Virus record (IMG/VR): IMGVR_UViG_3300044641_004147
Coordinates: 29,347-93,346 of that record
Strand: one strand, 5' to 3'
Origin: a virus
DNA length: 64,000 nt
Part shown: piece by piece, positions 41,229 through 59,773 of the stretch
Numbering within the stretch: position 1 is the first letter of the stretch
How the letters are laid out: every line of letters begins with the position of its first letter
Made by a program: the position numbers and the translations under genes
The notes under the pieces: model-generated
What the model was told of the DNA's origin: nothing
What the model saw: only the letters and a program-made list of their open reading frames with translations
The model's database searches: none

Positions 41229-44200
41229 ATGAAAATTGCTATCATTGACATAATCGGACTTCCATACGATGGCACCACGGTATACCGCCAAGGACTAGGT
41301 GGATCTGAAAGTGCTGTTACCTACATGAGTGCAGAACTGGCCGCACTGGGATTTGAGGTAACAGTATTCAATAACTGTAACATCGACCACGCACAGGCCG
41401 GCAAGTACTCGGGCGTAACTTACCGCCCACTTTCAGATCTTGCCCACGATCACTATTTTGACATTGTGGTCAGCAGTCGCACTATTATTCCGTTTATGCC
41501 GCCGGAACGGTATCATGAATTGCAGGACAATCGTGCTATGCCACTGCAAGGTTATAATATCTATAACCGAATCTGTGCTCAGGCAAAGATGCGTGTGCTT
41601 TGGATGCATGACACATTTTGTCTTGGTGATAACTATATCGAAGAATTAGCAGTCGGCAATCGCATCACAGATATTTTCACACTCAGCGACTTTCATTTAA
41701 CCTATGTGGCCAACTGCAACCATGGCCGTCGTAGAAACTTTGAAGTACTAAAGTCAAAACTGTTTATCACTCGCAACGGTGCTAAAAAGTTTGATGTTCC
41801 AGTTAATGTATCCGCCAAGGACCGTAACTTATTTGTTTACAATGCGTCTGTGACCAAAGGCATGATACCATTGGTTAACGAAATTTGGCCCATGGTACGA
41901 CAAGTCATACCTACTGCAAGATTAAAGGTCATTGGCGGCTATTATAGATTCAGCGAGGCACATGGTCCCGACCAACAAGAGCAAGATTGGCGGCGTATGG
42001 TTGCAGACCCAAAGTATTCTGCCCAGGGCATAGAGTTCACTGGTGTTATTCCACAAAGTGAAATTGCAGAAATACTAGCACAGGCCTACATGATGATCTA
42101 TCCTGGAGCATTTCCAGAGACATTTGGCATCAGCAGTTTAGAAAGTTTAATTTACAATACACCTGTGGCCACTTGCAGGTTTGGTGCCTTAGAAGAAATT
42201 GTGCCGGAGTTGGCAGGCTACCACTTAGATTATGCCATTGAGCCCAACAGTCTATTCACAGATATAGATCGTAGTCGTCAGTGTCAGCTATTTGCTGACA
42301 TGGTTATTCGTGCATGGAATAACCCATACCTACACCAGCAAAAACAATATTACTGTAATGCAGTCAAAGACATTGCCGGTTGGGATAGTGTAGCCTTACA
42401 GTGGAAGCAATGGTTCTATCGCAAAACCGGTAACTATCTCAGCAGAGATCAGTACCGCCGTGTGAGTAAAATAAACCATGCAGTACATAAAATCTGGGGT
42501 CGTAGATACACCAACACTGTAGAATTTGAATCATACAAATCCGGCCAAGAACAACCTATTCGTGTAGTCAGTACTTTTTATAATGCCGAACAATACATCG
42601 GCAAGTTTATTACCAGTGTGGCCTGTCAAGACTACAACAGCTACGAAGTTTATATGGTCAATGATGCCAGCACTGACAGTACTGCGGCAGCAATTCATAG
42701 TGCGCTGGCTCAGCTGCCTGCAGAAATTGCACAAAAGTTTCATGTAGTCAACAACAGAGAAAATCGTGGCGCAGTGGCTAACCAAGTGGCAGTGCTTCGT
42801 GCCTTGGCAGACACAGACAGTATTGTAATGGTCATTGACGGTGACGATTGGTTAGTCAATGACAACAGTATATTCAGCTACTACAACACCGTCTATGATG
42901 GCACCGTAGAATTTACCTATGGTAGTTGCTGGAGTGTAGTTGATAATATTCCGTTGATTAGCCAACCCTACCCTGCGGAGATTAAACAGGCCCGTGCTTA
43001 TAGAAAACATCAGTTTAACTGGATACTACCTTACACACACCTGCGTACATTTAAATCTCAATTGATTAAAAATATACCTGACAGTGCATTTCAAGACAGT
43101 CACGGACAATGGTATCGAGCTGGCGGAGATGGCAGTACCTTTTACAATTTAATCGAAGCTGCTGATCCTGCGGGTGTTCGTTGCTTGCCCGAGATTGTTT
43201 ACTGTTACAACGATGCCAGCCCGCTTAACGATTACAAAGTCAACGGCCAAGAACAAAATCGTACAGCACAAGAAATAGTCAATAGAACCACAGAAGAAAA
43301 GAAAGAATCACCTAAAATGGATTACATCCCAGTATTAGAAAACGAATATCAGTGGGCCTGCGACACGCCCAGCGACATTAACCAACACCTGCCACTGCTG
43401 AGGTCCTTGGCCGACGAGTGCAACACTGTGGTTGAATTGGGTGTGCGTACTGGAATCTCTACCAGAGCATTGTTAGTCAGCAGGGCTCGTTTATACAGCT
43501 ATGATATTAGCTTAGAGCAGTCAGTGACCAATCTGTTTAATTTGGCCAAGCAAGCCGGAAAAGTCTGTAGTTATGAATCTGCTGACAGTTTGACAATGAC
43601 TATTCCGGAAACTGATTTACTGTTCATTGACACATATCATACCTATGCACAGTTATCGGCTGAACTCAGACAGCATCACAGTCGTGCAAAAAAATATATA
43701 GCCTTCCACGACACATTTACCTATGGATTAAAAACAGATCAAGACCCTAAGAAAGGTATACTGACAGCCATTATGGAGTTCATGGTTGAACATCCTGAAT
43801 GGCGTTTGAAATATCACACTTCTGAGAACAATGGATTTACAGTTTTAGAAAAGTCTGCACCAGCATCTAAGTCAGTGACTACAATGGCAAAGAAGATTCT
43901 AGTGGCTATTCCTACTGCTAGAAATATCGAAGCAGAAACTTTTAAAAGCATTTACGATCTAGAAGTGCCCGACGGATACAGGGTTGATTTTCAATATTTC
44001 TATGGCTACAACATTGATCAGGTACGCAACTTAATTGCCGACTGGGTAGTTCGTGGCTATGATTATCTGTTTAGTGTAGATTCAGACATTGCGTTTCCAC
44101 CAGATACACTAAAGAGGTTATTAGCACACAATGTTGACATGGTATCGGGACTGTATATTCAACGCAAGCCCGGGCAACACACTTTAGAAGTCTACGAACA

Positions 44201-45173
44201 TAACGGTCAGGGTGGCGTCAGTAATATTCCCTACGGAAAAATCAAAGGGCGCGGTCTAGTAGAAATTGCCAGTTCTGGCTTTGGCTGTGTGTTGGTCCGG
44301 GGCGAAGTTATGCGAGCTATTCCGTATCCGCACTTCAAATATCACAGCGCCATTGATCATCGTAACACCATCAGCGAAGATGTGGATTTCTGCAAAAAGG
44401 CGTTAGCTCAAGGATTTAAGATTTGGGCAGACACAGACATTCAATGCCGACACATTGGCAGTTCAGAATTTCTAGTAGATAACAATATTCCTGCTGTGGA
44501 AACACCTGTGGTTAACATACAGGATCGTCTGCGCGAATTAGGCAATCAGCGACTGCTGCCTAAAACGCATATAGACTATCTGTTGCAGTTAAAGTTGTCA
44601 GGATACACCCCTAAGGTAGTCTATGACATTGGCAGTTGCGTTATGCATTGGACCAATGAATCATTGAGAATTTGGCCCGATGCTCATTATGTGTTGTTTG
44701 AGGCTATGCCATCTGTGGAATTTTTATATCAAGAGCGCGGAATCAGAGATTATCACATTGGAGTGTTAGCTTCCGAGTCTGGCCGTACTGTGGAATTCTG
44801 GCAAAATGATTACCATCCTGGTGGCAACAGCTACTACAAAGAAAATGTGGCTATTAACCCTGGTGTTCCTGAATACTTTATGCGTAAGTACACAACAAAA
44901 ACATTGGCCGAAGTAGTGGCACAGCGTCAGTTTCCCTTGCCCGATCTGGTTAAAATGGATGTGCAAGGTGCCGAAATGGATATTGTTCGTGGTGCAGAAG
45001 GTATTATTAAACATGCCCAACATGTTATATTAGAATTGCAAAAAGTTGAATACAATACTGGCGCACCACTGCACCAAGAAGTAATTGCATATATGGATCA
45101 ACTGGGCTTTGACTGTCTGGGCATTTTCAGTGACAACGGCCCGGACGGTGACTATCACTTTGTTCGCCGATAA
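41229..45173 (+). CDS. Five-domain glycosyltransferase/methyltransferase fusion
   Basis: 1314 residues; the start at 41229 is chosen because a consensus promoter ends 6 nt upstream. Domain 1 (about 1-410) is a GT4-like glycosyltransferase (GLGGSESAVTYMSAEL; FPETFGISSLESL). Domain 2 (about 438-680) is a GT2-like transferase with DGDDW at 537-541. Domain 3 (about 720-878) is a class I methyltransferase-like fold (VVELGVRTGISTRALL, then LLFIDTYHTY). Domain 4 (about 886-1080) is a second GT2-like domain with DSDIAFP near 951. Domain 5 (about 1130-1314) is an FkbM-type methyltransferase (VKMDVQGAEMDIVRGAE; D1244). It probably builds or caps a glycan. Targets could be phage fibres, the host surface or modified DNA bases; the sequence does not decide. 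Confidence 0.85.
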   Translation: MKIAIIDIIGLPYDGTTVYRQGLGGSESAVTYMSAELAALGFEVTVFNNCNIDHAQAGKYSGVTYRPLSDLAHDHYFDIVVSSRTIIPFMPPERYHELQDNRAMPLQGYNIYNRICAQAKMRVLWMHDTFCLGDNYIEELAVGNRITDIFTLSDFHLTYVANCNHGRRRNFEVLKSKLFITRNGAKKFDVPVNVSAKDRNLFVYNASVTKGMIPLVNEIWPMVRQVIPTARLKVIGGYYRFSEAHGPDQQEQDWRRMVADPKYSAQGIEFTGVIPQSEIAEILAQAYMMIYPGAFPETFGISSLESLIYNTPVATCRFGALEEIVPELAGYHLDYAIEPNSLFTDIDRSRQCQLFADMVIRAWNNPYLHQQKQYYCNAVKDIAGWDSVALQWKQWFYRKTGNYLSRDQYRRVSKINHAVHKIWGRRYTNTVEFESYKSGQEQPIRVVSTFYNAEQYIGKFITSVACQDYNSYEVYMVNDASTDSTAAAIHSALAQLPAEIAQKFHVVNNRENRGAVANQVAVLRALADTDSIVMVIDGDDWLVNDNSIFSYYNTVYDGTVEFTYGSCWSVVDNIPLISQPYPAEIKQARAYRKHQFNWILPYTHLRTFKSQLIKNIPDSAFQDSHGQWYRAGGDGSTFYNLIEAADPAGVRCLPEIVYCYNDASPLNDYKVNGQEQNRTAQEIVNRTTEEKKESPKMDYIPVLENEYQWACDTPSDINQHLPLLRSLADECNTVVELGVRTGISTRALLVSRARLYSYDISLEQSVTNLFNLAKQAGKVCSYESADSLTMTIPETDLLFIDTYHTYAQLSAELRQHHSRAKKYIAFHDTFTYGLKTDQDPKKGILTAIMEFMVEHPEWRLKYHTSENNGFTVLEKSAPASKSVTTMAKKILVAIPTARNIEAETFKSIYDLEVPDGYRVDFQYFYGYNIDQVRNLIADWVVRGYDYLFSVDSDIAFPPDTLKRLLAHNVDMVSGLYIQRKPGQHTLEVYEHNGQGGVSNIPYGKIKGRGLVEIASSGFGCVLVRGEVMRAIPYPHFKYHSAIDHRNTISEDVDFCKKALAQGFKIWADTDIQCRHIGSSEFLVDNNIPAVETPVVNIQDRLRELGNQRLLPKTHIDYLLQLKLSGYTPKVVYDIGSCVMHWTNESLRIWPDAHYVLFEAMPSVEFLYQERGIRDYHIGVLASESGRTVEFWQNDYHPGGNSYYKENVAINPGVPEYFMRKYTTKTLAEVVAQRQFPLPDLVKMDVQGAEMDIVRGAEGIIKHAQHVILELQKVEYNTGAPLHQEVIAYMDQLGFDCLGIFSDNGPDGDYHFVRR

Positions 45174-45176
45174 ATA
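45169..45176 (+). promoter_or_regulatory. Predicted late promoter (GATAAATA)
   Basis: GATAAATA overlaps the TAA stop of the glycosyltransferase and lies 17 nt before the ATG at 45194. CTTT and GTT at 45158-45164 can pair with AAC and AAAG at 45176-45184, which would bury the motif and part of the ribosome site; the pairing is weak. Confidence 0.65.
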
Positions 45177-45193
45177 ACTTAAAGAGGCAGGCT

Positions 45194-45373
45194 ATGAGAC
45201 TAAAGGAATTTATCAGAACAACATTCAACAATGACGGCGTACTAGATGTCTATGAGCATGGCCGTCACGAAGTTAACCAACCATTTAACAGCGAAACTGG
45301 CGAAAAGTTCAAGGATCAAGACGAAGCATTGTCTTGGTTATTAAAATACTACCCTAATTATTTTACGCCCTGA
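45194..45373 (+). CDS. 59-residue late protein, function unknown
   Basis: ATG at 45194 with AAAGAGG 6 nt upstream and a late promoter in front; the frame closes at TGA 45371-45373. The product (MRLKEFIRTTFNNDGVLDVY ... WLLKYYPNYFTP) is charged and soluble. Its 3' end overlaps the end of the convergent Nudix gene by 16 nt. The N-terminus resembles those of the charged proteins near 60985 and 61943 (M-(K/R)-x-x-x-(F/Y)-x-x-(E/D)), but no family is recognised. Confidence 0.65.
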   Translation: MRLKEFIRTTFNNDGVLDVYEHGRHEVNQPFNSETGEKFKDQDEALSWLLKYYPNYFTP

Positions 45374-45789
45374 TTTAGCAGGCGTTGCACCGTTTTTAGT
45401 TTTTCGATAACTTCGTTAAAATTAATGGTGCGCCAAACGCCAGGGTGCAAGGGCTTTGGATGATCTTCGACTGCACACCAAGCGTACCCTTTGTGTTCTT
45501 CGTTGAGCACAGGCACAAACTCATCATCCACAGGAATTAAAAATGTGTGATAAGTGAATTTGTTGTTTTCGCTGGTAAACTTTTCAATTGGATACAGTTT
45601 GGCATTGGGTATAACGCCGCCCAATTCTTCTTCAATTTCTCTGGCTAGGCCTTCTGACACAGTTTCGCCTCGCTCTATTTTGCCGCCAGGTAAACCCCAG
45701 GTATTAGCATATTTGTTTCCGCTACGCAGTAGGAACAAATATCGTTTGGTGCTAATACTGTAAATTAGTGCTCCAGTACTTTCAATCAA
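45358..45789 (-). CDS. Nudix hydrolase
   Basis: 143 residues with a complete Nudix box at residues 36-58 (GKIERGETVSEGLAREIEEELG fits G-x5-E-x7-R-E-U-x-E-E-x-G-U). Family members hydrolyse nucleoside diphosphates linked to another moiety, such as oxidised dNTPs, nucleotide sugars or capped RNA; the substrate here is unknown. A TTG start (45789-45787) overlaps the TGA of the upstream gp15-like gene, so it is coupled to virion genes and expressed late. A role with the neighbouring glycan enzyme (nucleotide sugars) is possible but speculative. Confidence 0.88.
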   Translation of the reverse strand: MIESTGALIYSISTKRYLFLLRSGNKYANTWGLPGGKIERGETVSEGLAREIEEELGGVIPNAKLYPIEKFTSENNKFTYHTFLIPVDDEFVPVLNEEHKGYAWCAVEDHPKPLHPGVWRTINFNEVIEKLKTVQRLLNQGVK

Positions 45790-47153
45790 ATCGTTAAACT
45801 CCAGCGTGAATTATCATAACGACCTTCGACGCTCTTAGTCCAAATATTATTTTCCCATTTGTACTGAGCGCCAGTGGTCATGTTAGTAACATATTCTACA
45901 CTGGATGTGGCCTGGCTGTCAAATGCTACGGTCCAATAAAGGCCATTAAATTCCACAATATCGTTGGCATTGGCAATCAATTGTGTGTAGCCTGGCGGAT
46001 TCCAAGCCGATGCTGGATCTGTGTTATCTGGATGACCCACGGCATGTAACAGCAAATATCTAGCACCATTGTTTGGAGTCAACAAATTAGCATTGACATC
46101 AATGGTCTGCGGATTAATAATAGCATCCACTGGGTCTAGCGTGTTAGTTGGCACAGTATCCATGTCTGGTGTATAGAGAACCAATGTGTCGTCACTGGGG
46201 TGTAGTGCAATAGTGCCCACTAGCTCACTGCCATTGGCTTGCATCATTCTAACACGGCTAATACCATTTCGGATTCCGCCGTACTGTGTTGTTAGTGCTT
46301 GCCAGCTGTGCGAAGTTCGAAGATTAATTTCGTCTGTGATGGTAGTTTCTGTAGCCGACAAATCGTTTTTCTTTAGCAGTCTTAGAGTGTTACCGTTGTA
46401 GACAATGTCATAGTTGTCAAAGGTCAAGTAGACAAATGCTAATTCAAAGCCGTCCCCATCTGTAGGATCGAGAACACTGCTGATAATTTTATGAATAACA
46501 CCTAGTTGTTTGACCTTGGCCGGAGCACTTATCCAAATTGGTAGTTCAAAGGTTAAGCTGGCAATGTCAATATTTTCTTCTGTGCCCACAGGCACACTGC
46601 GATTGCTCCAACTAATATCTGTTAACAATACATAGCTTAAACTGGTCCAGTCGATATAGTTGTCGGTGCTTTGAATTTCCATTGCCGGGTTGAACATGAT
46701 CATGATCTGTTCCAGCAATTGTAGTTTTTGTTCAGTGTTACTGGTCCATACATCTACTTTAAGAGTTAGTTTGTATGGCACTGGCATCAGACGCTCAACA
46801 GTATAAGTGCCGCCTTGTTGATCTGTGTACTGTCCAGTGGATTCATCATAACCACGGGTGCGAATATTCATTTTACTAACAAAGTTAGGTTCTTGCACTC
46901 GCTCACGATCATAGGTTAATTGGTTAATATGCACAGCCATGGCTGGCACAGCCTTGATAGTATTTTCACTGTTTTGTCTTAGTATTTGACTGGCCTGTCT
47001 ACTGGCATCACCATAAAACACCGGCACACGCTGATAAACAGCATGACCTTGGTCGTCGTTACTGAGTTGAACTTGAAAGTTACTCATAATCCTGACAAAC
47101 TGTGTCAGGAATCTGCGTATTTGTCTGTCGTAGAAAAATGTAGTATAGCTCAT
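45786..47153 (-). CDS. 15: Tail sheath stabiliser, T4 gp15-like
   Basis: 455 residues. The first 235 residues follow the T4 gp15 plan: FFYDRQIRRFLTQFVRIMSNFQV at the N-terminus, RVPVFYGD, INQLTYDRERVQEPN, a YKLTLKVDVWTSNTEQKLQLLEQIM strand-helix, then LTFELPIWISAP. T4 gp15 has about 270 residues and forms the ring that ends the tail and joins it to the neck; this copy carries about 180 extra C-terminal residues. Starts in a TGATG overlap with the gp14-like gene. The identification is by motif recall and needs a profile search. Confidence 0.75.
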   Translation of the reverse strand: MSYTTFFYDRQIRRFLTQFVRIMSNFQVQLSNDDQGHAVYQRVPVFYGDASRQASQILRQNSENTIKAVPAMAVHINQLTYDRERVQEPNFVSKMNIRTRGYDESTGQYTDQQGGTYTVERLMPVPYKLTLKVDVWTSNTEQKLQLLEQIMIMFNPAMEIQSTDNYIDWTSLSYVLLTDISWSNRSVPVGTEENIDIASLTFELPIWISAPAKVKQLGVIHKIISSVLDPTDGDGFELAFVYLTFDNYDIVYNGNTLRLLKKNDLSATETTITDEINLRTSHSWQALTTQYGGIRNGISRVRMMQANGSELVGTIALHPSDDTLVLYTPDMDTVPTNTLDPVDAIINPQTIDVNANLLTPNNGARYLLLHAVGHPDNTDPASAWNPPGYTQLIANANDIVEFNGLYWTVAFDSQATSSVEYVTNMTTGAQYKWENNIWTKSVEGRYDNSRWSLTI

Positions 47154-48334
47154 CAGTTATCAGGATTAGGTTTAAGAGCTTGGCTGAGACCTTGACGCTC
47201 TTGATGCGTACCAGCATTGTCAGCAAAAGTACGATTGTTGTTAATAAATCCACTCTTAAGAGTTTGATTCTGCGCTCCAGGAGTCAACGGACTGCGAACA
47301 TTGTCTTCAATCTTGACCCAGCGTTTACCGTCAAATCTAAATAACCTATTAGGTACATAATCTACACGCAGACAGTAATCACCGGTATTGGGCGCAGATG
47401 GAAAGCTAATACCAGAAACCAATGGAAATCCGTTTGGTGCTTGCCCGTCTCCGGTTAACCACCCTTTGACTTTGGCGTCTGGGCTGATTCTAGCCAAGTC
47501 TGCAGATATCATTAAGTCGCTGGCATCGGCACCTAACAATGTATTAGAAGCAAAATTATCAGCAGTGACAACTTTACTAGGAGCAGCCTGCCCACTGGTG
47601 TCCAATGGCTGTATAAAAATACCCGAGGTATCATACCCACTTTTTGGCACTTCAACTTCTGCCTGTTGCACAATGGCGTCATTGATATCAGTGTAGGTAT
47701 TGTAAGTGCTGATCACATCTCTTAGAGTCATTTCTTCACCGTTGGCACCTGTTTCAATTTTATTGAGGATATCTTTGTATTCCTGGCTGTCCACCAGTGG
47801 GTTAATCTTACAACGCCACAGGTGTGGCCACCAAGTTGGACTAAAGCCTTCACTGGCTCGTTGGCAGTCGCCAACTATAAAAAATCTCTTTAGTGCCACA
47901 GGCACATCGTTTAATGCATCGTAATCTTTGAGATGCAATAGCTCAATGACATCGCCGCTCATAATTTTGCGACCTACTAAGTTGACCATGTCATTGATGT
48001 GGAATGTTAAAAACAGCGTACCAGTGGCTAAAAATAGTCCAAACTGTGTTAGGTCAAAATCGCTGTCACTAACCTGATAAATTCCACGCATAGGATATAC
48101 CGTGGTGTCATAGACTCTGTCACGGTTTTCTAAAAACAGCAGGTCTTGAATCTGCTGTTCGCTTTGGTTGGCATACTGTGGCTGTGTGTAATCGTCAACG
48201 CCTTGATTTCTAGTACCTAGATACTTGTGTACCAAGACGCCCGTTCCGCCCACAGTGAACATTTCCGAAATTCTACGGTCAAAGAACTTGTAGTCGTTTG
48301 AGTGATTTTCGCGCCAGAGCGATAAACGAGGCAT
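47153..48334 (-). CDS. 14: Neck protein, T4 gp14-like
   Basis: 393 residues. N-terminal SLWRENHSNDYKFFDRRISEMF and the segment GRKIMSGDVIELLHLKDYDAL...FFIVGDCQRASEGFSPTWWPHLWRC resemble T4 gp14, where a GDLIYFP segment is followed by PFYQLG. It is longer than T4 gp14 (256 residues). Its direct coupling to the gp15-like gene matches the 14-15 order of T4. Read leftward from a late promoter at 48356 with AAGGA as ribosome site. The match is weaker than that for gp15 and rests partly on context. Confidence 0.6.
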   Translation of the reverse strand: MPRLSLWRENHSNDYKFFDRRISEMFTVGGTGVLVHKYLGTRNQGVDDYTQPQYANQSEQQIQDLLFLENRDRVYDTTVYPMRGIYQVSDSDFDLTQFGLFLATGTLFLTFHINDMVNLVGRKIMSGDVIELLHLKDYDALNDVPVALKRFFIVGDCQRASEGFSPTWWPHLWRCKINPLVDSQEYKDILNKIETGANGEEMTLRDVISTYNTYTDINDAIVQQAEVEVPKSGYDTSGIFIQPLDTSGQAAPSKVVTADNFASNTLLGADASDLMISADLARISPDAKVKGWLTGDGQAPNGFPLVSGISFPSAPNTGDYCLRVDYVPNRLFRFDGKRWVKIEDNVRSPLTPGAQNQTLKSGFINNNRTFADNAGTHQERQGLSQALKPNPDN

Positions 48335-48355
48335 AAATGGGTATCCTTATTGCTA

Positions 48356-48363
48356 TATTTATG
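48356..48363 (-). promoter_or_regulatory. Predicted late promoter (minus strand CATAAATA)
   Basis: On the minus strand CATAAATA lies 21 nt before the ATG at 48334, with AAGGA between. The motif's CATAAAT is perfectly complementary to ATTTATG at the start codon, so a read-through RNA could pair them, while a late-started RNA could not. Confidence 0.7.
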
Positions 48364-48366
48364 GAC

Positions 48367-48395
48367 TTGACAAACTATAATTTTGGATGTATAAT
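48367..48395 (+). promoter_or_regulatory. Consensus sigma70-type promoter, leaderless
   Basis: TTGACA (48367-48372), a 17-nt spacer, TATAAT (48390-48395), then 6 nt to ATG 48402. The upstream in-frame ATG at 48387 overlaps the promoter itself and is not likely to be transcribed. Confidence 0.85.
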
Positions 48396-48401
48396 AGTGA
48401 A

Positions 48402-48662
48402 ATGCAGGAGCGTCACGACTTAAACCGAAAAAAACTGGAAGAGTGCTTTGCCCAGTTGCAGGGTATGAGTATGGTACCAAAAAGTAAAATGTTTAAGTTT
48501 TACAAAAATGCCAGCGTGGCATTCACGGACTTAGACAAAGAATTTGTAGAATGTCGGCGACTCAAGCATATTTCGTCCAGATACGAAACACTGGAACAAC
48601 AGTACAACGAATGTATTACAGTTTTTGAACAGTGGAGCATAATGGCTACCCTGATGTACTGA
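48402..48662 (+). CDS. Small charged protein, probably early, unknown function
   Basis: 86 residues from the ATG that follows the promoter. Helix-rich and charged (MQERHDLNRKKLEECFAQLQ ... YETLEQQYNECITVFEQWS), with coiled-coil-like spacing. No family is recognised. It ends immediately before the next sigma70-type promoter, so it forms a single-gene unit; the strong host-type promoter suggests early expression. Confidence 0.7.
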   Translation: MQERHDLNRKKLEECFAQLQGMSMVPKSKMFKFYKNASVAFTDLDKEFVECRRLKHISSRYETLEQQYNECITVFEQWSIMATLMY

Positions 48663-48663
48663 C

Positions 48664-48692
48664 TTGACAAACGGTTCAAAATCTGCTATAAT
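48664..48692 (+). promoter_or_regulatory. Perfect-consensus sigma70-type promoter
   Basis: TTGACA (48664-48669), a 17-nt spacer, TATAAT (48687-48692). Unlike its neighbours it has a normal leader with AAAGGAG (48707-48713) 7 nt before the ATG at 48721. Confidence 0.88.
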
Positions 48693-48720
48693 TAATAAAT
48701 TACAGTAAAGGAGTTGTCTT

Positions 48721-49878
48721 ATGGCTACAGTTGCTGGCGTTAAAATTAAAACCAAAGCACCTAAAATTCGAAATCCCCTGTTTGCTGATGAAAAGTACAC
48801 AGGCTCAGAGCCAGAGTGGCCAACTGAGGCAAAAGATTGGGACGATGCTAAATTCGACAATCTGTTGCGCCGTAGCTTCTACTACTACAATTATTACTAC
48901 AACCAAAAAGAAACTAAAAAACATGTGGTAGATTGGATGCGCCGTAGCACAGAATTCGACAAAGACGAAATTCGTGCCTTTGAGCGAGCCAACGATCGTT
49001 GGTTGCCCATGACCGCTTGCAGTTTGATACTGGCGCATCGCAAAGGCATGCCGTTCCGCACTCGTCACAGTGACTATCTCAATAAGACTATCTTGGAAAT
49101 TATTGAGCGCAGTCGCGAAGAAATCGAAGAAGTTGTTGCCACACCAGAGCAGGTTGCAGTTCGCCCTACTATCCAAGATCGTTTGGCAGAAAAGACCGGT
49201 GAGCTAATTGGCGAACTTGAAGGTCACTATGACGAAATGGATACCAGTACAGTTAAGTTCTATGATTGGTTTGTGGCCAATAATGTAGTTCAGAGCCAAT
49301 TGGGCAGGTACGAAGCACTTTACACCCGGCGTCTTGAAGAACTAGAAGAAGCACAGACAAAGAAAGACCCACAGCTCAAGGAAGCCTACAGCCACTTTAA
49401 AGCCGTGGATTTTAAGAAGCGTATTAGTTGGATCAACGATTTGTTGAGTGCCATTGAGCAGTATCGCGGCGTTAAAAAGGCCGCTAAAAAAGCTCGTGTT
49501 AAAAAGGCTCCTAGCAAAGAAAAGGTAGTGGCCAAACTCAAGTACGCCAAAGATGACAAGGCAATGAAGATTGTCAGTATTAATCCTGCAGACATTGTAG
49601 GGGCCGCAGAGCTTTGGATTTACAATAACAAGACTCGTAAGCTGGGCAAATATGTTGCTGGCAGTTATCATACTCTAGGTGTTAAAGGTACTACAATTAC
49701 CGGATACGACCCTGATAAAAGTGTGGCAAAAACTCTACGCAAGCCCGAAGAACAGCTTAAAGAGTTTGCCAAAGCAGGCAAGATTGCACTACGCACCTTT
49801 ATTAAGGAGATCAAAGCAGTCGAAGTCAAACTCAACGGGCGCATTAACACAGATACTCTGCTACTGCGTATAGGCTAA
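48721..49878 (+). CDS. Conserved charged phage protein, unknown function
   Basis: 385 residues. N-terminal helical region with a Tyr-rich patch (RRSFYYYNYYYN, near residue 52), central charged helices, a Lys/Arg/Ala-rich linker (VKKAAKKARVKKAPSKEKV, about 250-270), and a C-terminal region (ADIVGAAELWIYNNKTRKLGKY...). I recall similar uncharacterised proteins in cyanophages and pelagimyophages. The basic linker suggests nucleic acid binding; the strong early-type promoter suggests a role soon after infection. Downstream is a terminator-like hairpin. Function remains unknown. Confidence 0.75.
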   Translation: MATVAGVKIKTKAPKIRNPLFADEKYTGSEPEWPTEAKDWDDAKFDNLLRRSFYYYNYYYNQKETKKHVVDWMRRSTEFDKDEIRAFERANDRWLPMTACSLILAHRKGMPFRTRHSDYLNKTILEIIERSREEIEEVVATPEQVAVRPTIQDRLAEKTGELIGELEGHYDEMDTSTVKFYDWFVANNVVQSQLGRYEALYTRRLEELEEAQTKKDPQLKEAYSHFKAVDFKKRISWINDLLSAIEQYRGVKKAAKKARVKKAPSKEKVVAKLKYAKDDKAMKIVSINPADIVGAAELWIYNNKTRKLGKYVAGSYHTLGVKGTTITGYDPDKSVAKTLRKPEEQLKEFAKAGKIALRTFIKEIKAVEVKLNGRINTDTLLLRIG

Positions 49879-49894
49879 GTTCGAGTTCGACTCC

Positions 49895-49929
49895 AGTCCT
49901 GTGCATAAATACTTGCACAGGACTTTTTT
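49895..49929 (+). terminator. Terminator hairpin whose loop holds a late promoter
   Basis: Perfect 10-bp stem AGTCCTGTGC (49895-49904) / GCACAGGACT (49915-49924), a 10-nt loop and a run of six T up to 49929. It would end transcripts of the upstream gene. The loop carries the late motif core, and the right arm carries AGGA, the ribosome site for the gp13 gene at 49930. Confidence 0.85.
49904..49911 (+). promoter_or_regulatory. Predicted late promoter (CATAAATA) in the terminator loop
   Basis: CATAAATA lies 18 nt before the ATG of the gp13 gene. The predicted start near 49917 falls inside the right arm, so late RNA cannot form the hairpin and keeps AGGA (49919-49922) exposed. Confidence 0.75.
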
Positions 49930-51060
49930 ATGGCTACACTTAAACCAGGTTTAACGCCGACTGGCGCACTTATTACAGACAACCTAGGCGGCCCCGGGCA
50001 GATCGCTTTTGATCCTACGCCACTGGATTCTTTAAGTCAAAAGAAAAACGAAATCATTGACTACATCAGACTACGCCTAGGCGATCAAATTGTCGATGTT
50101 GAACTAGACAAAGAACACTACGAGCTGGCTATAAAAAATGCATTTAACAGATACAGACAGCGGGCTCAGAACAGCGTCGAAGAAAGCTATGCTTTCCTAG
50201 AGTTACTGCCTAACACACAAGAATATATACTGCCACAGGAAATAATGACTGTTCGCAGTGTTTATCGCAGAGGTATCGGCAGTGTCACAGGAACCACAGC
50301 CAGCCAATTTGAACCTTTTGCATCAGGGTATTTGAACACTTACATGCTGGTAGCTGGCCGCGTAGGTGGTCTAGTTAACTACGAATTGTTTACACAATAT
50401 CAAGAGCTGGCTATGAAGATGTTTGGTGGCCATATTGACTTTACTTGGAACCCTTCTACACGAAAACTTACACTGATTCGTAAGATTCCCGATCAAACAA
50501 CCACTTACATTCGATTGAATAGCATGACTGCCTCCGGTTTAACTCCAGGCAGTACAATTACACTGGCTACCAGCACATCTACCTCAGTGGCTGTTGGTGC
50601 TAGCCTTGTTATTAATAACTGCCCTATAGCAGGATACAATAACAACTATATGGTTACCGCAGTAGATACTGTGCTACAGACTCTTACTGTAACAGCAGTA
50701 CAAGCTCTAGGTGCAACCAGTGTCACAGGGTTTGATCTAAGTAAAACTCGTGTCAGTAGCCCTGCCACAGATGTTCCAGCAGAAGTGGTAATGTTACGCA
50801 CTTACAATCATAAACCTGATGTAATGTTGCTTAACGATCACTTTATCTTTCCCTGGATTCAGGACTATGCTTATAGTTTTGCCAAGCGTATTGTTGGTGA
50901 AGCTCGTAGTAAGTTTCAAACCATTGCTGGACCGCAGGGCGGAACCAGTCTAAACGGTGACGCACTTAAAACCGAAGCACAGGCCGAAATGGAAAAACTA
51001 GAAGAAGAGTTAAAGAACTATGTTGACGGTTCGGCCCCTCTAACCTGGGTTATCGGCTAA
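49930..51060 (+). CDS. 13: Neck protein, T4 gp13-like
   Basis: 376 residues. Matches the T4 gp13 plan: an N-terminal helix with IDYIRLRLGDQIVDVELDKEHYELAIKNAFNRY, then EYILPQEIMTVRSVYRRG, a central FGGHIDFTWNPSTRKLTLIR strand pair, and a C-terminal helical part with FAKRIVGEARSKF and GGTSLNGDALKTEAQAEMEKLEEEL. gp13 joins the filled head to the tail. Roughly 70 residues around 190-270 (TASGLTPGSTITLATSTSTSVAVGA...) look like an inserted beta domain. It is separated in orientation from gp14 and gp15, unlike T4. Confidence 0.82.
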   Translation: MATLKPGLTPTGALITDNLGGPGQIAFDPTPLDSLSQKKNEIIDYIRLRLGDQIVDVELDKEHYELAIKNAFNRYRQRAQNSVEESYAFLELLPNTQEYILPQEIMTVRSVYRRGIGSVTGTTASQFEPFASGYLNTYMLVAGRVGGLVNYELFTQYQELAMKMFGGHIDFTWNPSTRKLTLIRKIPDQTTTYIRLNSMTASGLTPGSTITLATSTSTSVAVGASLVINNCPIAGYNNNYMVTAVDTVLQTLTVTAVQALGATSVTGFDLSKTRVSSPATDVPAEVVMLRTYNHKPDVMLLNDHFIFPWIQDYAYSFAKRIVGEARSKFQTIAGPQGGTSLNGDALKTEAQAEMEKLEEELKNYVDGSAPLTWVIG

Positions 51061-51068
51061 TTAAATCC

Positions 51069-51097
51069 TTGACAAAATTGCTATTAACTCATACAAT
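51069..51097 (+). promoter_or_regulatory. Consensus sigma70-type promoter, leaderless
   Basis: TTGACA (51069-51074), a 17-nt spacer, TACAAT (51092-51097), then 6 nt to ATG 51104. No Shine-Dalgarno is present between the promoter and the start. Confidence 0.82.
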
Positions 51098-51103
51098 CGC
51101 TGT

Positions 51104-51751
51104 ATGATTATTGGCATCTGTGGATTCATTGGCAGCGGCAAAGACACTGCCGCAGACTATTTGGTTAACTTTCATGAATTTCGCCGTGAAAGTTTTGCTG
51201 GCATTCTCAAAGACGCAGTCTCGGCAGTGTTTGGCTGGGACAGAGAAATGCTAGAAGGTCGTACTAGGCAAAGCCGCGAATGGCGTGAACAGGTAGACTC
51301 ATGGTGGGGGCAAAGGCTCAACATTCCTGAATTAACCCCTAGGTGGGTCCTACAGTACTGGGGCACTGAAGTTCTACGCCGCGGGTTTCATGACGATATC
51401 TGGATTGCAGGACTAGAGAACAAATTGCGTACCAGCAGTGACAATGTAGTGATCAGTGACTGTAGATTCCCTAATGAAATCCAAGCAATTAAAAACCAAG
51501 GTGGCCGAGTAATCTGGGTTCAGCGTGGTACGTTACCTGAATGGCATGAATATGCTGTGGCTGTAAACAAAGGCCCCGGTCATATTGGTTGGGCTTTGGG
51601 CAAAGAGCGCCTGGGCAAATACAAAATACATGCCAGCGAAACCAGCTGGGTAGGCACAGACTTTGATGCTGTCATTGACAATAACGGATCATTGGATGAT
51701 CTGTACAATCAAATCAAAAATCTGGTACAAGATCCGCAGGCTTCCAACTAA
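51104..51751 (+). CDS. 1: Deoxynucleoside monophosphate kinase, T4 gp1-like
   Basis: 215 residues. P-loop GFIGSGKDT at residues 7-15, followed by the AADYL helix, F-A-x-x-L-K-D-A near residue 32, WVLQYWGTEVLRRGF and ISDCRFPNE, which together fit the T4 gp1 dNMP kinase family. It phosphorylates dNMPs for phage DNA synthesis. A host-type promoter rather than a late one agrees with an early metabolic role, even though it sits among virion genes. Its 3' end overlaps the convergent minus-strand gene by 38 nt. Confidence 0.82.
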   Translation: MIIGICGFIGSGKDTAADYLVNFHEFRRESFAGILKDAVSAVFGWDREMLEGRTRQSREWREQVDSWWGQRLNIPELTPRWVLQYWGTEVLRRGFHDDIWIAGLENKLRTSSDNVVISDCRFPNEIQAIKNQGGRVIWVQRGTLPEWHEYAVAVNKGPGHIGWALGKERLGKYKIHASETSWVGTDFDAVIDNNGSLDDLYNQIKNLVQDPQASN

Positions 51752-52064
51752 GCCTACTTTTAAATACTTCCTGTTGACAGTTTAGGCATATAGTTTTTAA
51801 GTTAGGCCAACTGTTATTACGCAGATTTCCATCTAGATAAAATACCCTGAGTTGATCATCGGGGTATTTTGCTTTGAATCCACACTTCTCACACTGCGGT
51901 TTTTTTCTGTAACCGTGCTTGAACCAAGACGGCGGTTGTGGCTTAGGCGTGCGACCTTTGTGTATGCAACTGGTACACATTCTTCTATAATGTGTGACAC
52001 CGTTCTTAACATAGTTAATTGCCACTGGATGTTGGCCGCATTGGCATAAAGATCTACATTGCAT
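51714..52064 (-). CDS. Zinc-binding HNH-like protein lacking catalytic residues
   Basis: 116 residues with two Cys clusters: C7-C9-C30-C33 and C58-C61-C93-C96. The second half keeps the HNH frame (CEKCGF ... YLDGNLRNNSWPNLKTICLNC), but where HNH nucleases carry His-His before the D-G-N there is F75-Y76, and the final His after the last Cys pair is Q97. It may therefore bind DNA without cutting. A late motif lies 4 nt before the ATG, predicting a leaderless late mRNA. It could be a domesticated homing-nuclease relative. Confidence 0.7.
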   Translation of the reverse strand: MQCRSLCQCGQHPVAINYVKNGVTHYRRMCTSCIHKGRTPKPQPPSWFKHGYRKKPQCEKCGFKAKYPDDQLRVFYLDGNLRNNSWPNLKTICLNCQQEVFKSRLSWKPADLVPDF

Positions 52065-52068
52065 ATAG

Positions 52069-52076
52069 TATTTATC
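52069..52076 (-). promoter_or_regulatory. Predicted late promoter, minus strand (GATAAATA), nearly leaderless
   Basis: On the minus strand GATAAATA ends 4 nt before ATG 52064, leaving no room for a leader. Confidence 0.6.
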
Positions 52077-52108
52077 GTGCTGACCTTTGCAAAGGACCTG
52101 TAACGATA

Positions 52109-52157
52109 TCCTTTTATGCTGGCCAGAATAAATAACTACAATGTAATCTTAAAAGGA
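52109..52157 (+). promoter_or_regulatory. Late promoter flanked by arms that pair over the ribosome site
   Basis: TCCTTTTA (52109-52116) is perfectly complementary to TAAAAGGA (52150-52157), which contains the ribosome site of the sheath gene. The late motif AATAAATA (52127-52134) lies in the 33-nt loop. RNA started there lacks the left arm; RNA reading in from upstream can hide AAGGA. Confidence 0.65.
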
Positions 52158-52164
52158 AAATCAT

Positions 52165-55100
52165 ATGGCAGCATTAGTATCCCCTGGCATTAGCATCACA
52201 GTTATCGACGAAAGCCAATACTTACCAACCGCGGTTGGAACAGTTCCTTTCGTGCTATTTGCTAGTGCCGAGAATAAAGTAGTAAACAACGCCATTGCCC
52301 CGGGTACCAAGAAAGCCAATGCAGGCAAGGTATATGGTATTAGCAGCCAACGAGAATTAGTAGCCACATTTGGTGCTCCTACATTCCGTTTGAGTGCTTC
52401 TGGTACTCCGCTACATGGCAATGAGCTAAACGAATACGGTCTATTAGCCGCTTACAGCGCACTAGGCGTAGGTAATCGTGTCTGGGCCATCCGTGCCGAT
52501 ATTAACTTAGATGAGTTAGTTGGCACCACAGTTCGCCCAATCGGTGAAGTACCCGATGGTACTAACTGGTTAGACACCGCAGAAACAGAATGGGGTGTTT
52601 ACGAATACGATCAAATCAATAACGATTATGTGAACAAGGTTCCGCTGATTATTTCTAGCTGGAATGATATCACAGTCACCGGTGGTGTACCAACACCAAA
52701 CCAAAGCCTAGGCACAATTGGTGCTTATGCAGTGGTAGTTCGTGATGCTAATAACTACACATTCTACAAAAATAGTCTCAATGACTGGGTACAAATTGGC
52801 AGTTTAGATTGGCAAAATAGCCACCCTGCTGTATCTGGTACAAACAGCAGTCCTAACTTTACCGCAGGCAGAAGTTTCAGCATCAACGGCGTTGCTGTAA
52901 ATATTCCAGCTGGTACGCCTGATGTGGCCACCGTGGTTACTATTATTAATGCTCTAAACATCAATGGTGTTACTGCCGATATTGTCAATGGTTTCCTAGC
53001 ACTATATGTAGATGGAACCAGTAGCAGCACAGGCGGAACAGCCAATGGCGCTATTGCACTAGTCGACGGTACTGGTACAGGCCTAGCAGAACTAGGCATT
53101 GGTGCTGGCACATACTACGCTCCAGAGCTATACTATGGTAGTTTTAACCAAAACCCAAGTTGGAGCAGCTTTGATCCAATTCCTCGACCAACAGGTTCTG
53201 TATGGTTGAAGACCAGTGTTGCTGGCAATGGTGCAAACTTTGCAGTTAAGCAGTGGAATGGCACAACCAAGGCCTGGAACAAGTTGGCTACACCAATTTA
53301 CGCCGATGGATATGATGCACTATACGGTCTAGACAGCACCGGTGGTGGCCAGAATCTTCGTGCAGGTGCTATGTTTGTTAAGTATGACACCAACAATAAC
53401 GGCAACCTAAGCTTCAAACTATACGAATTAGTAATGGGCGGCAAGGTTGAAGTGTCTGGTTCTACTGTAGCCGGATCATTTGTATCTGGCAGCACATTTA
53501 CAATGCTAGTAAGCCAGCCTGGCACAAACATGCCAAGCACATACAATATTACAATCACTGGTACAAACGCCAGCGATTTTGTTACAGCTATTCTAGCCGC
53601 TAACATTCCTAATGTCACAGCCCGTGTAAACGGAGCAGGCGTAATCACAGTTCTGCACAATGCTGGTGGTTTAGTTACATTAGTTAATACTACAGTTGGC
53701 ACTAACCCAATTACCACAGCTGGCTTTACCACCAGCACCGTTGGCGTAGTTCCAAATCTAGTACCTGGTAGCATCACGCTAACCAACTGGCGTCTAGCTA
53801 CATACACATTCAGTGACACTGAGCCATACACAGCACCAGATGATGGTCGTCTATGGTACTACAGCGATCCTACAGCAGTTGATATCATGATCTGTGACAC
53901 CAATGGCTGGAAGGGTTACAAGAATGTAGCTCGTGATGCTCGTGGCTTTAACCTACAAGTAACTGATCCAGGTGGCGTTATTATTGCTGCCAGCGAGCCA
54001 GTTACACAAAGTGATGGCACACAGCTAGAGCCGGGTGATCTATGGTTAGACAGCAGTGATCTAGAAAACTATCCAAAACTATATCGCCGTACTGCTACTA
54101 ACAGATGGCAACTAATTGATAACACCGACAGCATTAGCCAAAACGGTATTGTATTTGCTGATGTTCGTTGGGATGGTGACAGCAACCACACTGGTGGTAA
54201 CACAGATCCGATCTCTGGAGATTATCCTAGCTGTGCAGACATGCAGTCCAGCAACTATATTGACTTAGACGCTCCGGATTTCCGCTTGTTCCCACGCGGC
54301 ACATTGCTATTCAACACTCGTCGTAGCGGCTACAATGTTAAGAAATACATTGGTAACTACTTCAATGCACAGGCATTCCCAAATAACATTCTGCCAACAG
54401 TCAAGGCAGCTTGGGTCACAGATAGTGGCAACAAGCAAGATGGTACACCATATGCTGGACACTGGGCACAGCGAGCAGTTATTGTTCGTGCTCTAAAGGC
54501 AGCACTAGACGGAAGCCTAGACATCCGCGAAGAAGGTTATAACTTTAACCTATTGACCTGCTCTGGATATCCAGAGTTGATACCTAACTTGATCGCACTA
54601 AACAACGATCGTAGCAACACAGGCTTTATCATTGGCGACACACCGATGACATTGCCAGCTACAATCAGTGACATCACTAACTACAACAATACTGTAGCAG
54701 TGAATCGCGATCCGTATGTGGCTCTGTACTATCCAAGTGCATTGACTAACGACCTAAGTGGTAACGAAGTTGCAGTACCTGCTAGCCATATTATGTTACG
54801 CACATACATTCGCAACGACAATGTAGCATATCAGTGGTTTGCACCAGCCGGTACACGCCGCGGTCTAGTAGACAATGCTACAGCAATTGGATATGTTGAT
54901 GCTAGAAGTGGATTGTTTGTTAATACCGGTATTGGCAAGGGTCTGCGCGATGCACTATATGAACTAAATCTAAACCCAATTACTTTACTGTTGGGTACAG
55001 GTCTAGTAGTGTATGGTCAGAAGACACGCAACCCAGTATCCAGCGCACTGGATCGTGTAAACGTTGCACGACTGGTAAACTATTTGCGTGTGGTGCTACA

Positions 55101-55374
55101 ACCACTGGCCAACCAATTCTTGTTTGAGCCAAATGACAAGATCACTCGTGATCAAGTTAAGCAGGTTGTTGAAAGTGTACTAAATGATCTAGTAGCCAAG
55201 CGTGGTCTGTATGATTACTTGGTTGTCTGTGATAACAGCAACAATACACCAGACCGTATCGCAAGAAACGAGCTGTACATCGATATCGCTGTCGAGCCAA
55301 TGAAGGCTGTAGAATTTATCTACATTCCAATTCGCTTGAAGAACCCAGGTGCCATCAGCGGAGGCACAGCTTAA
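52165..55374 (+). CDS. 18: Tail sheath protein, T4 gp18-like
   Basis: 1069 residues against about 660 in T4. N-terminal VSPGISITVIDES is a typical sheath start. The C-terminal 320 residues carry the conserved sheath core: HWAQRAVIVRALKAALDGS (about 763), NRDPYVALYYP, RGLVDNATAIGYVD, VNVARLVNYLRVVLQPLANQFLFEPND (FEPND near 987), LYDYLVVCDNSNNTPD and AVEFIYIPIRL. The excess length lies between residues about 180 and 740, where several beta-rich inserts (for example NITITGTNASDFVTAILAANIP) would decorate the outside of the sheath. It contracts to drive the tube into the host. Driven by the late promoter at 52127. Confidence 0.93.
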   Translation: MAALVSPGISITVIDESQYLPTAVGTVPFVLFASAENKVVNNAIAPGTKKANAGKVYGISSQRELVATFGAPTFRLSASGTPLHGNELNEYGLLAAYSALGVGNRVWAIRADINLDELVGTTVRPIGEVPDGTNWLDTAETEWGVYEYDQINNDYVNKVPLIISSWNDITVTGGVPTPNQSLGTIGAYAVVVRDANNYTFYKNSLNDWVQIGSLDWQNSHPAVSGTNSSPNFTAGRSFSINGVAVNIPAGTPDVATVVTIINALNINGVTADIVNGFLALYVDGTSSSTGGTANGAIALVDGTGTGLAELGIGAGTYYAPELYYGSFNQNPSWSSFDPIPRPTGSVWLKTSVAGNGANFAVKQWNGTTKAWNKLATPIYADGYDALYGLDSTGGGQNLRAGAMFVKYDTNNNGNLSFKLYELVMGGKVEVSGSTVAGSFVSGSTFTMLVSQPGTNMPSTYNITITGTNASDFVTAILAANIPNVTARVNGAGVITVLHNAGGLVTLVNTTVGTNPITTAGFTTSTVGVVPNLVPGSITLTNWRLATYTFSDTEPYTAPDDGRLWYYSDPTAVDIMICDTNGWKGYKNVARDARGFNLQVTDPGGVIIAASEPVTQSDGTQLEPGDLWLDSSDLENYPKLYRRTATNRWQLIDNTDSISQNGIVFADVRWDGDSNHTGGNTDPISGDYPSCADMQSSNYIDLDAPDFRLFPRGTLLFNTRRSGYNVKKYIGNYFNAQAFPNNILPTVKAAWVTDSGNKQDGTPYAGHWAQRAVIVRALKAALDGSLDIREEGYNFNLLTCSGYPELIPNLIALNNDRSNTGFIIGDTPMTLPATISDITNYNNTVAVNRDPYVALYYPSALTNDLSGNEVAVPASHIMLRTYIRNDNVAYQWFAPAGTRRGLVDNATAIGYVDARSGLFVNTGIGKGLRDALYELNLNPITLLLGTGLVVYGQKTRNPVSSALDRVNVARLVNYLRVVLQPLANQFLFEPNDKITRDQVKQVVESVLNDLVAKRGLYDYLVVCDNSNNTPDRIARNELYIDIAVEPMKAVEFIYIPIRLKNPGAISGGTA

Positions 55375-55384
55375 TATAGGTACA

Positions 55385-55411
55385 TAATGGAGCAGAGACC
55401 CTGCTCCATTA
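55385..55411 (+). other. Perfect 11-bp hairpin between sheath and tube genes
   Basis: TAATGGAGCAG / CTGCTCCATTA around a 5-nt loop, 11 nt after the sheath stop. There is no T-run, so it is more likely an mRNA 3'-end stabiliser, processing site or weak terminator. Confidence 0.75.
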
Positions 55412-55425
55412 CCAGACTTAAATTA

Positions 55426-55433
55426 GGTAAATA
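55426..55433 (+). promoter_or_regulatory. Predicted late promoter (GGTAAATA)
   Basis: GGTAAATA lies 21 nt before the tube start at 55455, followed by CAGGAG (55441-55446) as ribosome site. Confidence 0.65.
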
Positions 55434-55454
55434 TTTGCAACAGGAGACGAAAAT

Positions 55455-56072
55455 ATGGCAATCGCATCGTTGACGAGATTCACAGTACCGTTGGCCACTG
55501 ACCAAAGCGCCAGTAGCCAGGGACTATTGATGCCAAAATTGCCCTTCCGCTTTAGGGCCAGTTTTGAGGGGTTTGGCGTTAGTGCTAACAAAGTAGAACT
55601 AACAAAACAAGTAGTAAGTTTTGCACGACCAACAGTTACATTTGGTGACATTGATATTCATGTTTATAACAGTATTGTCCGATTGGCAGGTAAGCCAACT
55701 TGGAACGATATTCAAGTTGTACTGCGTGACGATGCTCCAGGTAATGTTACCAAGTTGGTTGGTGAACAACTTCAGAAGCAATTTGACTTCATGGAACAAA
55801 GTAGTGCTGCCTCGGGCATTGACTACAAGTTTATCACACGCTGCGAAATGCTAGACGGTGGTAACGGAGTCAACGAACCGACAGTGTTGGAAACATGGGA
55901 ACTATATGGTTGCTATATCCAAAGTGCGGCATATGGCGAATTAAACTACAGCACTAACGATCCTGTGCAGATTACACTGACACTAAAGTTCGATAATGCT
56001 GTTCAGACACCTGGAGGCGTTGGAATTGGTACATTCATTGGACGTACCATTGGAACTAACGTAACACAATAA
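55455..56072 (+). CDS. 19: Tail tube protein, T4 gp19-like
   Basis: 205 residues, close to T4 gp19 (163) with small extensions. PKLPFRFRASFEGFG at the N-terminus, VELTKQVVSFARPTVTFGDIDIHVYNSIVRLAGKPTWNDIQVVLRDD (given in part by its key motifs) and the C-terminal LTLKFDNAVQ strand are typical of the tube fold. It stacks as hexamers inside the sheath. Its position directly after the sheath gene matches T4 order. A rho-independent terminator follows. Confidence 0.9.
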   Translation: MAIASLTRFTVPLATDQSASSQGLLMPKLPFRFRASFEGFGVSANKVELTKQVVSFARPTVTFGDIDIHVYNSIVRLAGKPTWNDIQVVLRDDAPGNVTKLVGEQLQKQFDFMEQSSAASGIDYKFITRCEMLDGGNGVNEPTVLETWELYGCYIQSAAYGELNYSTNDPVQITLTLKFDNAVQTPGGVGIGTFIGRTIGTNVTQ

Positions 56073-56090
56073 CGCCCTGGTGACACCCTT

Positions 56091-56119
56091 AATGCCCGGT
56101 TTAGGCCGGGCATTTTTTT
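56091..56119 (+). terminator. Rho-independent terminator after the tube gene
   Basis: Perfect 9-bp stem AATGCCCGG (56091-56099) / CCGGGCATT (56106-56114), a 6-nt loop, and a run of seven T at 56113-56119. It isolates the sheath and tube units from the next late unit. Confidence 0.92.
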
Positions 56120-56121
56120 GA

Positions 56122-56129
56122 CATAAATA
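56122..56129 (+). promoter_or_regulatory. Predicted late promoter (CATAAATA), leaderless
   Basis: CATAAATA ends exactly 5 nt before ATG 56135. With the T4 late spacing the start site is the A of the ATG, and there is no Shine-Dalgarno. Confidence 0.75.
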
Positions 56130-56134
56130 TTGTT

Positions 56135-57838: not shown

Positions 57839-58203
57839 ACACAAACAATCTAGGCACAATCGACATAAACAGTCGAAGCAATGCATCTAACTTTTTCAAC
57901 AATTTAACTTTACCTAGTATATCAGTTAGTCAAAATGTCGACGATGCAATCATTGGCTATTTTCAGCAGGTAGCTGAAAATAAAGAAGCCGCAAAGGCAT
58001 TAGCATCTGCGGTTATTCTAACCAGCGTGAGCCAAGGCATTGATCCAATGGAAACTTTGCAACAATTTATGAAAATGGGCAAGGCAGAGCTCAATGGTTA
58101 CTTAACAATGTTTTTAAACTTAAACAGAGTTGGAACCAGTTACCTAGGTATCAGTAATCAGCCAGTGACTGGCAAATATGTCGCAAGAACTATATTACCA
58201 TAA
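57835..58203 (+). CDS. Conserved small virion-type protein, unknown function
   Basis: 122 residues, helical (VDDAIIGYFQQVAENKEAAKALASAVILTSVSQGIDPMETL), ending GKYVARTILP. I recall similar proteins with the same LNxYLxxFLNLNR-x-x-TS-x-LG pattern in many T4-like cyanophages, always uncharacterised. Overlaps the upstream gene by 4 nt (ATGA) and the downstream gp4-like gene by 1 nt (TAATG), so translation is tightly coupled. Probably a tail or head-completion accessory protein. Confidence 0.75.
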   Translation: MNTNNLGTIDINSRSNASNFFNNLTLPSISVSQNVDDAIIGYFQQVAENKEAAKALASAVILTSVSQGIDPMETLQQFMKMGKAELNGYLTMFLNLNRVGTSYLGISNQPVTGKYVARTILP

Positions 58204-58640
58204 TGGCCAAATACGCTAACGGAAAATTTCAAGTAAAGAATGCCGCAAAATATGTAGGCAAGAAACAACCTACCTATAGGTCAGGTTGGGAATTTACTTT
58301 TATGCAGTTTTGCGACAACAATCCTGCTGTGGTTAATTGGGCCAGCGAACCTTTTATGATTCCCTATAGGAATCCTTTTACTGGCAAGAATACAATTTAT
58401 GTACCGGATTTTATGATAGTCTATGTTGACAAAAATCAACAGAAACATGCAGAGGTAGTAGAAGTCAAACCACGCAAAGAAGTTAGCATGGAAAGTGCCC
58501 GCAGTGACAGAGATCGAGCTGCCGCTGCATTGAATGCTGCCAAATGGATGGCTGCTAAAGCCTGGTGTGCCCAACAGGGTCTGCACTTCCGTATAGTAAC
58601 CGAAGAAGATATCTATGCTGGTATCAAAAAAACCCGCTAA
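58203..58640 (+). CDS. 4: Head completion protein, T4 gp4-like nuclease fold
   Basis: 145 residues, matching T4 gp4 (150). YRSGWEFTFMQFCDNNPAVVNWASEPFMIPY, then VPDFMIVY and VVEVKP give the residues E30, E49, D69, E87 and K89 expected for a TnsA/restriction-endonuclease-like D-ExK site. In T4 gp4 (also called gp50) acts on packaged heads before tail joining. The WASE and Y-x-PDF motifs are well kept, so the fold is likely active. It lies between tube-type genes and the small terminase. Confidence 0.88.
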   Translation: MAKYANGKFQVKNAAKYVGKKQPTYRSGWEFTFMQFCDNNPAVVNWASEPFMIPYRNPFTGKNTIYVPDFMIVYVDKNQQKHAEVVEVKPRKEVSMESARSDRDRAAAALNAAKWMAAKAWCAQQGLHFRIVTEEDIYAGIKKTR

Positions 58641-58643
58641 ATA
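58636..58643 (+). promoter_or_regulatory. Predicted late promoter (GCTAAATA), leaderless
   Basis: Overlaps the stop of the gp4-like gene and ends exactly 5 nt before ATG 58649; no Shine-Dalgarno. Same geometry as the promoters at 56122 and 63070. Confidence 0.7.
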
Positions 58644-58648
58644 TCTGC

Positions 58649-59146: not shown

Positions 59147-59154
59147 CATAAATA
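59147..59154 (+). promoter_or_regulatory. Predicted late promoter (CATAAATA)
   Basis: CATAAATA starts right after the TAG stop of the gp16-like gene and lies 24 nt before ATG 59179. ATAAAT in the motif can pair with ATTTAT at 59166-59171. Confidence 0.7.
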
Positions 59155-59178
59155 TAGATAACTGGATTTATTATTACC

Positions 59179-59772: not shown

Positions 59773-59773
59773 A

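Follow-up and report, generated by a model that had tools for sequence, protein, structure and literature searches.

A hairpin with a late-promoter motif at its loop as a probable timing switch for a gp13-type phage neck gene

The stretch of viral DNA analysed here, called the window throughout, is 64,000 nucleotides long and forms part of a 93,346-base IMG/VR viral record. The element of interest lies between two genes on its plus strand. The upstream gene (48721 to 49878) codes for 385 amino acids and matches the profile of phrog_11903, a family with no assigned function; most relatives have a similar gene, kept directly 5' of the neck gene, and its product often carries GRINxDTLLLKV at the C-terminus. 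The downstream gene (49930 to 51060) encodes a 376-amino acid gp13-type neck protein, or head-tail adaptor Ad2 (phrog_211, E = 4.5e-33), which is homologous to the annotated neck proteins of PA5oct and the Rak2-like jumbo phages. Ahead of the upstream gene, at 48664 to 48692 on the plus strand, stands a sigma70-type promoter, TTGACA-17-TATAAT with a TG before the -10, which is a 12/12 match and would be expected to act as the early promoter of that gene. Judging by this perfect promoter, gp13 of the window would be situated as T4 gene e is, 3' of an early or middle unit. Of 47 loci, 25 have a sigma70-type promoter ahead of the upstream gene that matches at 10 or more of 12 positions, and in 12 the match is perfect, while only 2 to 3% of control stretches reach that level and none of 1258 is perfect. 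Since about half of the loci are without a strong promoter of this kind, early read-through may not be general to all of them. Further upstream, at 48356 to 48395, a minus-strand late motif (before a minus-strand gene starting at 48334) adjoins a perfect plus-strand sigma70-type promoter at 48367 to 48395, an arrangement of divergent late and early promoters.

The stop codon of the phrog_11903 gene lies 16 nt 5' of a plus-strand hairpin that occupies 49895 to 49924. The preliminary description of this DNA had given it a perfect 10-bp stem; the stem is indeed perfect, but by sequence and fold it extends to 11 bp, made up of a left arm at 49895 to 49905 (AGTCCTGTGCA) and a right arm at 49914 to 49924 (TGCACAGGACT) that enclose the loop TAAATACT at 49906 to 49913. 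A T4-type late promoter motif, CATAAATA, spans 49904 to 49911 on the same strand. It had been placed wholly in the loop, which is true of six of its letters, the first two belonging to the left arm. The AGGA that had been assigned to gp13 as its Shine-Dalgarno sequence sits at 49919 to 49922, within the right arm as described, and a purine-rich Shine-Dalgarno is likewise found in the right arm of hairpin loci among the relatives. The T6 tract that had been noted after the stem is also present (49924 to 49929, plus strand): its first T belongs to the closing pair of the stem, with the ATG of gp13 directly after the tract at 49930, so that the tract forms the spacer between Shine-Dalgarno and start codon and possibly the tail of an intrinsic terminator, although it is not conserved.

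Within the 64 kb, counting both strands, no other perfect stem of 10 bp or longer has a T tail. Dinucleotide shuffles of the same sequence (n = 20) gave no tailed stems of this length, and 0.4 stems per shuffle when the tail was not required. The fold has a z-score of -3.8, and the Shine-Dalgarno is predicted to be paired with a probability of 1.00 in read-through RNA of the window. Membership in a known riboswitch or other Rfam family was rejected, as there were no matches at the gathering score in window 44000 to 64000. A tRNA remnant was also considered because the sequence TTCGAGTTCGACTC just 5' of the hairpin resembled a T arm, but an ARAGORN search returned no tRNA.

The late motif is credible in its own right. 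ATAAATA occurs 14 times in the window, and 9 of these sites lie 11 to 45 nt before the start of an open reading frame, compared with 16 of 352 for permutations of its letters (p ~1e-8); this enrichment argues for a late motif in the window. ATAAATA has also been predicted to mark late promoters in both CBB and GAP32 (PMC5259590). A gp55-like late sigma factor (PHROG 12791) is encoded by two relatives that both carry the hairpin, G002 and G006, and also by GAP32, XaC1, and PA5oct, while the 93-kb contig of the window, possibly a fragment, yielded none. At T4 late promoters, transcription begins some 13 nt beyond the octamer's first base. Applied to the motif of the window (-13 to -6), this geometry puts the predicted late start at 49917 on the plus strand, which is base 4 of the right arm. 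The late promoter is thus placed such that its RNA would be without the left arm, and AGGA would occupy positions +3 to +6 of that RNA.

Comparison of the regions upstream of gp13 in 80 relatives from viral contigs yielded 50 distinct regions with both TAAATA and a Shine-Dalgarno, the window included. The Shine-Dalgarno is predicted to be paired in read-through RNA with a probability above 0.9 at 45 of these 50 loci, one of them lying exactly at the edge. TAAATA is invariant in the aligned relatives and stands at the hairpin loop of every aligned locus, while the arms around it vary widely (TCCTGT/ACAGGA, TCCCGAT/ATCGGGA, TCCTATA/TATAGGA, and ACCCCGATAAC/GTTATCGGGGT among them). In 32 aligned sequences, 94.1% of stem cells are paired, falling to 38 to 45% when the partner is slid by one to three columns; the sequences had been trimmed around the stem, which favours the modelled pairing and is offset only partly by the slid and shuffled controls. 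Double, compensatory changes are seen in 8 of the 10 modelled pairs, and compensated cells number 60 compared with 16 in shuffles, counts that do not represent independent events because the loci share ancestry. None of 500 shuffles matched the real data in cells paired, compensated cells, or covariation score, and 11 of 500 matched the number of pairs with double changes. Among the non-canonical cells, G.U outnumbers A.C by 14 to 3 in stems that were picked blind to strand, an excess that points to selection on the transcribed RNA rather than on the DNA. No good hairpin was found in the relatives L035, L068, L076, L077, and L081, and none of this type was visible by eye in PA5oct, Atu_ph07, Phosso, or Vibrio phage 2.275. 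On this comparative evidence, the hairpin is a real and conserved regulatory element.

Predicted folding energies suggest what the element may do. In the window, opening the Shine-Dalgarno is predicted to cost 12.3 kcal/mol in read-through RNA and 0.1 kcal/mol in RNA starting from 49917; for the 45 loci, the predicted medians are 13.3 and 1.2 kcal/mol, respectively. When the folded late RNA is extended by 41 nt into the coding region, weak pairing of the Shine-Dalgarno is still predicted. Early in infection, host polymerase starting from the sigma70-type promoter would read through the phrog_11903 gene and then the hairpin. In the resulting RNA, the left arm would mask the gp13 Shine-Dalgarno and neck protein would not be made; in the phage of the window, the T6 after the stem would probably also stop part of the early transcripts. 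Later, a gp55-like sigma would bind CATAAATA across the top of the hairpin and direct RNA synthesis from about 49917 in the right arm, giving a transcript whose Shine-Dalgarno would lie open, two nucleotides from the 5' end. Without its left arm, such RNA could form neither hairpin nor terminator.

We therefore favour the view, with a probability of roughly 0.8, that the hairpin times the expression of the gp13 neck gene, acting as a switch in which a Shine-Dalgarno lock is combined with a late start inside the hairpin itself. This reading draws on the anatomy of the locus, its conservation and covariation, the G.U bias, the opening energies, the early-type promoter, and the late sigma of relatives, and from these we infer the start point, the early versus late timing, the translational repression, and the termination. 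It had already been suggested for this DNA that early RNA hides the ribosome site and late RNA frees it, and that idea gains strong support from the 45 of 50 relatives, the compensatory changes, the folding energetics, and the early-type promoter upstream.

The hairpin could instead serve primarily to end transcription of the early upstream unit as an intrinsic terminator, holding the late motif and the Shine-Dalgarno only through the shortness of the intergenic space, in which case the hiding of the Shine-Dalgarno would have no role. The window does have what defines an intrinsic terminator, a GC-containing stem with a U-rich tract right behind it, in the form of a strong 11-bp stem and T6, and a strong early-type promoter stands upstream. 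T-runs of at least four are also found in 20 of 45 gp13 spacers compared with 10 of 318 spacers of other genes, an excess that keeps the terminator idea in play, though part of it may stem from longer stems with A-rich left flanks. Against this explanation, only 27 of the 45 hairpin loci (~60%) pass a lenient rule for a U-rich tail, and the 18 that fail nonetheless keep both the hidden Shine-Dalgarno and the late motif. The T-run is also labile: on the gp13 tree it has undergone about 13 changes, of which strongly supported branches force at least 9, whereas the hairpin needs 3. A terminator as the conserved core was rejected on these two grounds, and termination as the primary function appears unlikely. 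The terminator that the preliminary description had proposed is thus plausible for the window and is probably active there at T6, but it does not hold as the conserved part of the element. From these comparisons we conclude that the conserved device would be a lock on translation that has the late start within it, to which termination may be added as an optional extra.

Two other explanations would give the hairpin no part in timing gp13 translation. At the DNA level, the near-perfect inverted repeat with a promoter at its centre might be an operator for a dimeric regulator that overlaps the late promoter, or might extrude as a cruciform, and PMC2988022 offers a precedent in I-TevI of T4, which binds an operator overlapping its own late promoter. 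We consider this very unlikely, as arm sequence and loop length both vary among relatives so that pairing rather than any half-site is kept, the G.U excess fits pairing of the transcribed strand and not of DNA, and the Shine-Dalgarno of the right arm lies at a workable spacing from the ATG. It is harder still to credit a hairpin that mainly protects or processes RNA, as a 5' or 3' stability element or an RNase site. Stable hairpins close to gene ends often shield 3' ends, which speaks for such a role, but it would leave unexplained why one locus after another places the late motif at the loop and keeps the Shine-Dalgarno within the right arm, and the predicted late gp13 RNA would itself be without the hairpin. 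A fuller version of the timing switch is more tentative, and we place its chances a little under even. In this version, a single 36-nt element would have three roles in the phage of the window and in many relatives, as early terminator, read-through lock, and core of the late promoter; the late start inside the hairpin would remove both blocks, the terminator would have been repeatedly gained and lost over a stable lock, and the Shine-Dalgarno of the late RNA would lie 2 to 4 nt from the 5' end.

The element does not appear to be a dispersed module, since its exact core occurs once in the genome of the window and a covariance model finds a single strong match in the window, the gp13 site itself; a repeated element of the same genome was rejected on this basis. 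In almost all of the relatives' genomes that were searched, the gp13 site again gave the strongest model hit. The idea that every late-motif gene in these genomes has this property was likewise rejected, because a buried Shine-Dalgarno was found in only a minority of them, and six metagenomic genomes held few other late-motif genes of this kind. In GAP32, a buried Shine-Dalgarno is present in 12 of 37 late-motif genes compared with 20 of 254 genes without the motif (p = 1.2e-4), and the device may therefore be used more broadly in Rak2-like phages. Among jumbo-phage isolates, other late-motif genes with hairpins that bury the Shine-Dalgarno were seen in GAP32 (L144-L161), XaC1 (L093), K64-1 (L096), and PA5oct (L095), the tail sheath gene of K64-1 being one of them.

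Two further sites of the window deserve mention as observations in their own right. At 56090 to 56135, a GC-rich hairpin that has a T7 tract (GCCCGGTTTAGGCCGGGCATTTTTTT) stands two bases ahead of the CATAAATA late motif, which in turn precedes a tail-tube-like gene; terminator and late promoter are here placed back to back without being merged. At 26602 to 26663, the inverted repeat TAGACTGCGCT / AGCGCAGTCTA flanks a CATAAATA motif and the ATG at 26643, and this might be a structured late leader with a larger loop.

In T4, the gene e switch is chiefly known for silencing a few dangerous or mobile genes early in infection, namely lysozyme and homing endonucleases. In the divergent, mostly uncultured phages compared here, a structural gene appears to be guarded by the same device, with clear compensatory evolution, which suggests a general answer to the problem of late genes that lie trapped 3' of early promoters. 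This raises the question of what harm premature neck protein might do. The element also supplies a search model for late promoters of unstudied phages, and it carries a warning for annotation, as hairpins of this kind may be catalogued as simple terminators.

The nearest counterparts at the neck gene itself are in GAP32, K64-1, and XaC1 (Rak2-like jumbo phages and XaC1), all of which have a hairpin before the gene, a CTAAATA motif, and a Shine-Dalgarno in the right arm. Both GAP32 and XaC1 have T6 to T8 after this hairpin along with their gp55-like sigma. They differ from the window in that the late motif is shifted toward the left arm rather than placed at the loop tip, and in their longer loop. 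The excerpts of the CBB paper (PMC5259590) contain no mention of such a switch, and no earlier description of a gp13 switch was found in the literature searched, which covered few subscription journals and included some papers as partial text. The gp13-type switch is absent from T4 gene 13, whose upstream hairpin is a different one; that hairpin (GGGGCC-GCAA-GGCCCC, L092:1597-1615) stands just before the Shine-Dalgarno and has a loop without the late motif.

Elsewhere in T4 the logic is already known. According to PMC3014915 and PMC2988022, it is shared by soc, 49, segB, I-TevI, I-TevII, I-TevIII, and mobE of Aeh1. These resemble the gp13 case in being late genes in early or middle units whose ribosome site is hidden by structure in the longer RNAs and which have a late promoter nearby; they differ in being mostly accessory or mobile genes, none of them gp13. 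In the soc leader, read by eye, the start codon seemingly lies in an arm and the Shine-Dalgarno in the loop. The closest match is gene e, for which PMC3014915 reports experiments in which folding of the longer early transcripts lowers lysozyme synthesis by ~100-fold, while RNAs from nearby late promoters are without the 5' part. As in the gp13 element, the hairpin of gene e masks the Shine-Dalgarno in read-through RNA, a late promoter (TATAAATA) lies within it, and late RNA is without the left arm (PMC3014915). Read directly from the sequence, the geometry is nearly identical: the left arm comes first, then a loop with the late motif, then a right arm that contains the Shine-Dalgarno, and a short spacer leads to the ATG. 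The gene e logic that had been proposed, a translational lock with the late start placed within it, is strongly supported. The gp13 element differs in that it precedes a neck protein gene rather than lysozyme, occurs in different and mostly uncultured phages, and has a longer and more perfect stem with a T-run after it in many members. In the literature, gene e has been compared among close relatives of T4, whereas the covariation at gp13 is drawn from divergent loci. The kind of switch is thus already known from T4, and the gp13 case would add to it another gene, strong comparative evidence, and a terminator that appears to have been added in many lineages.
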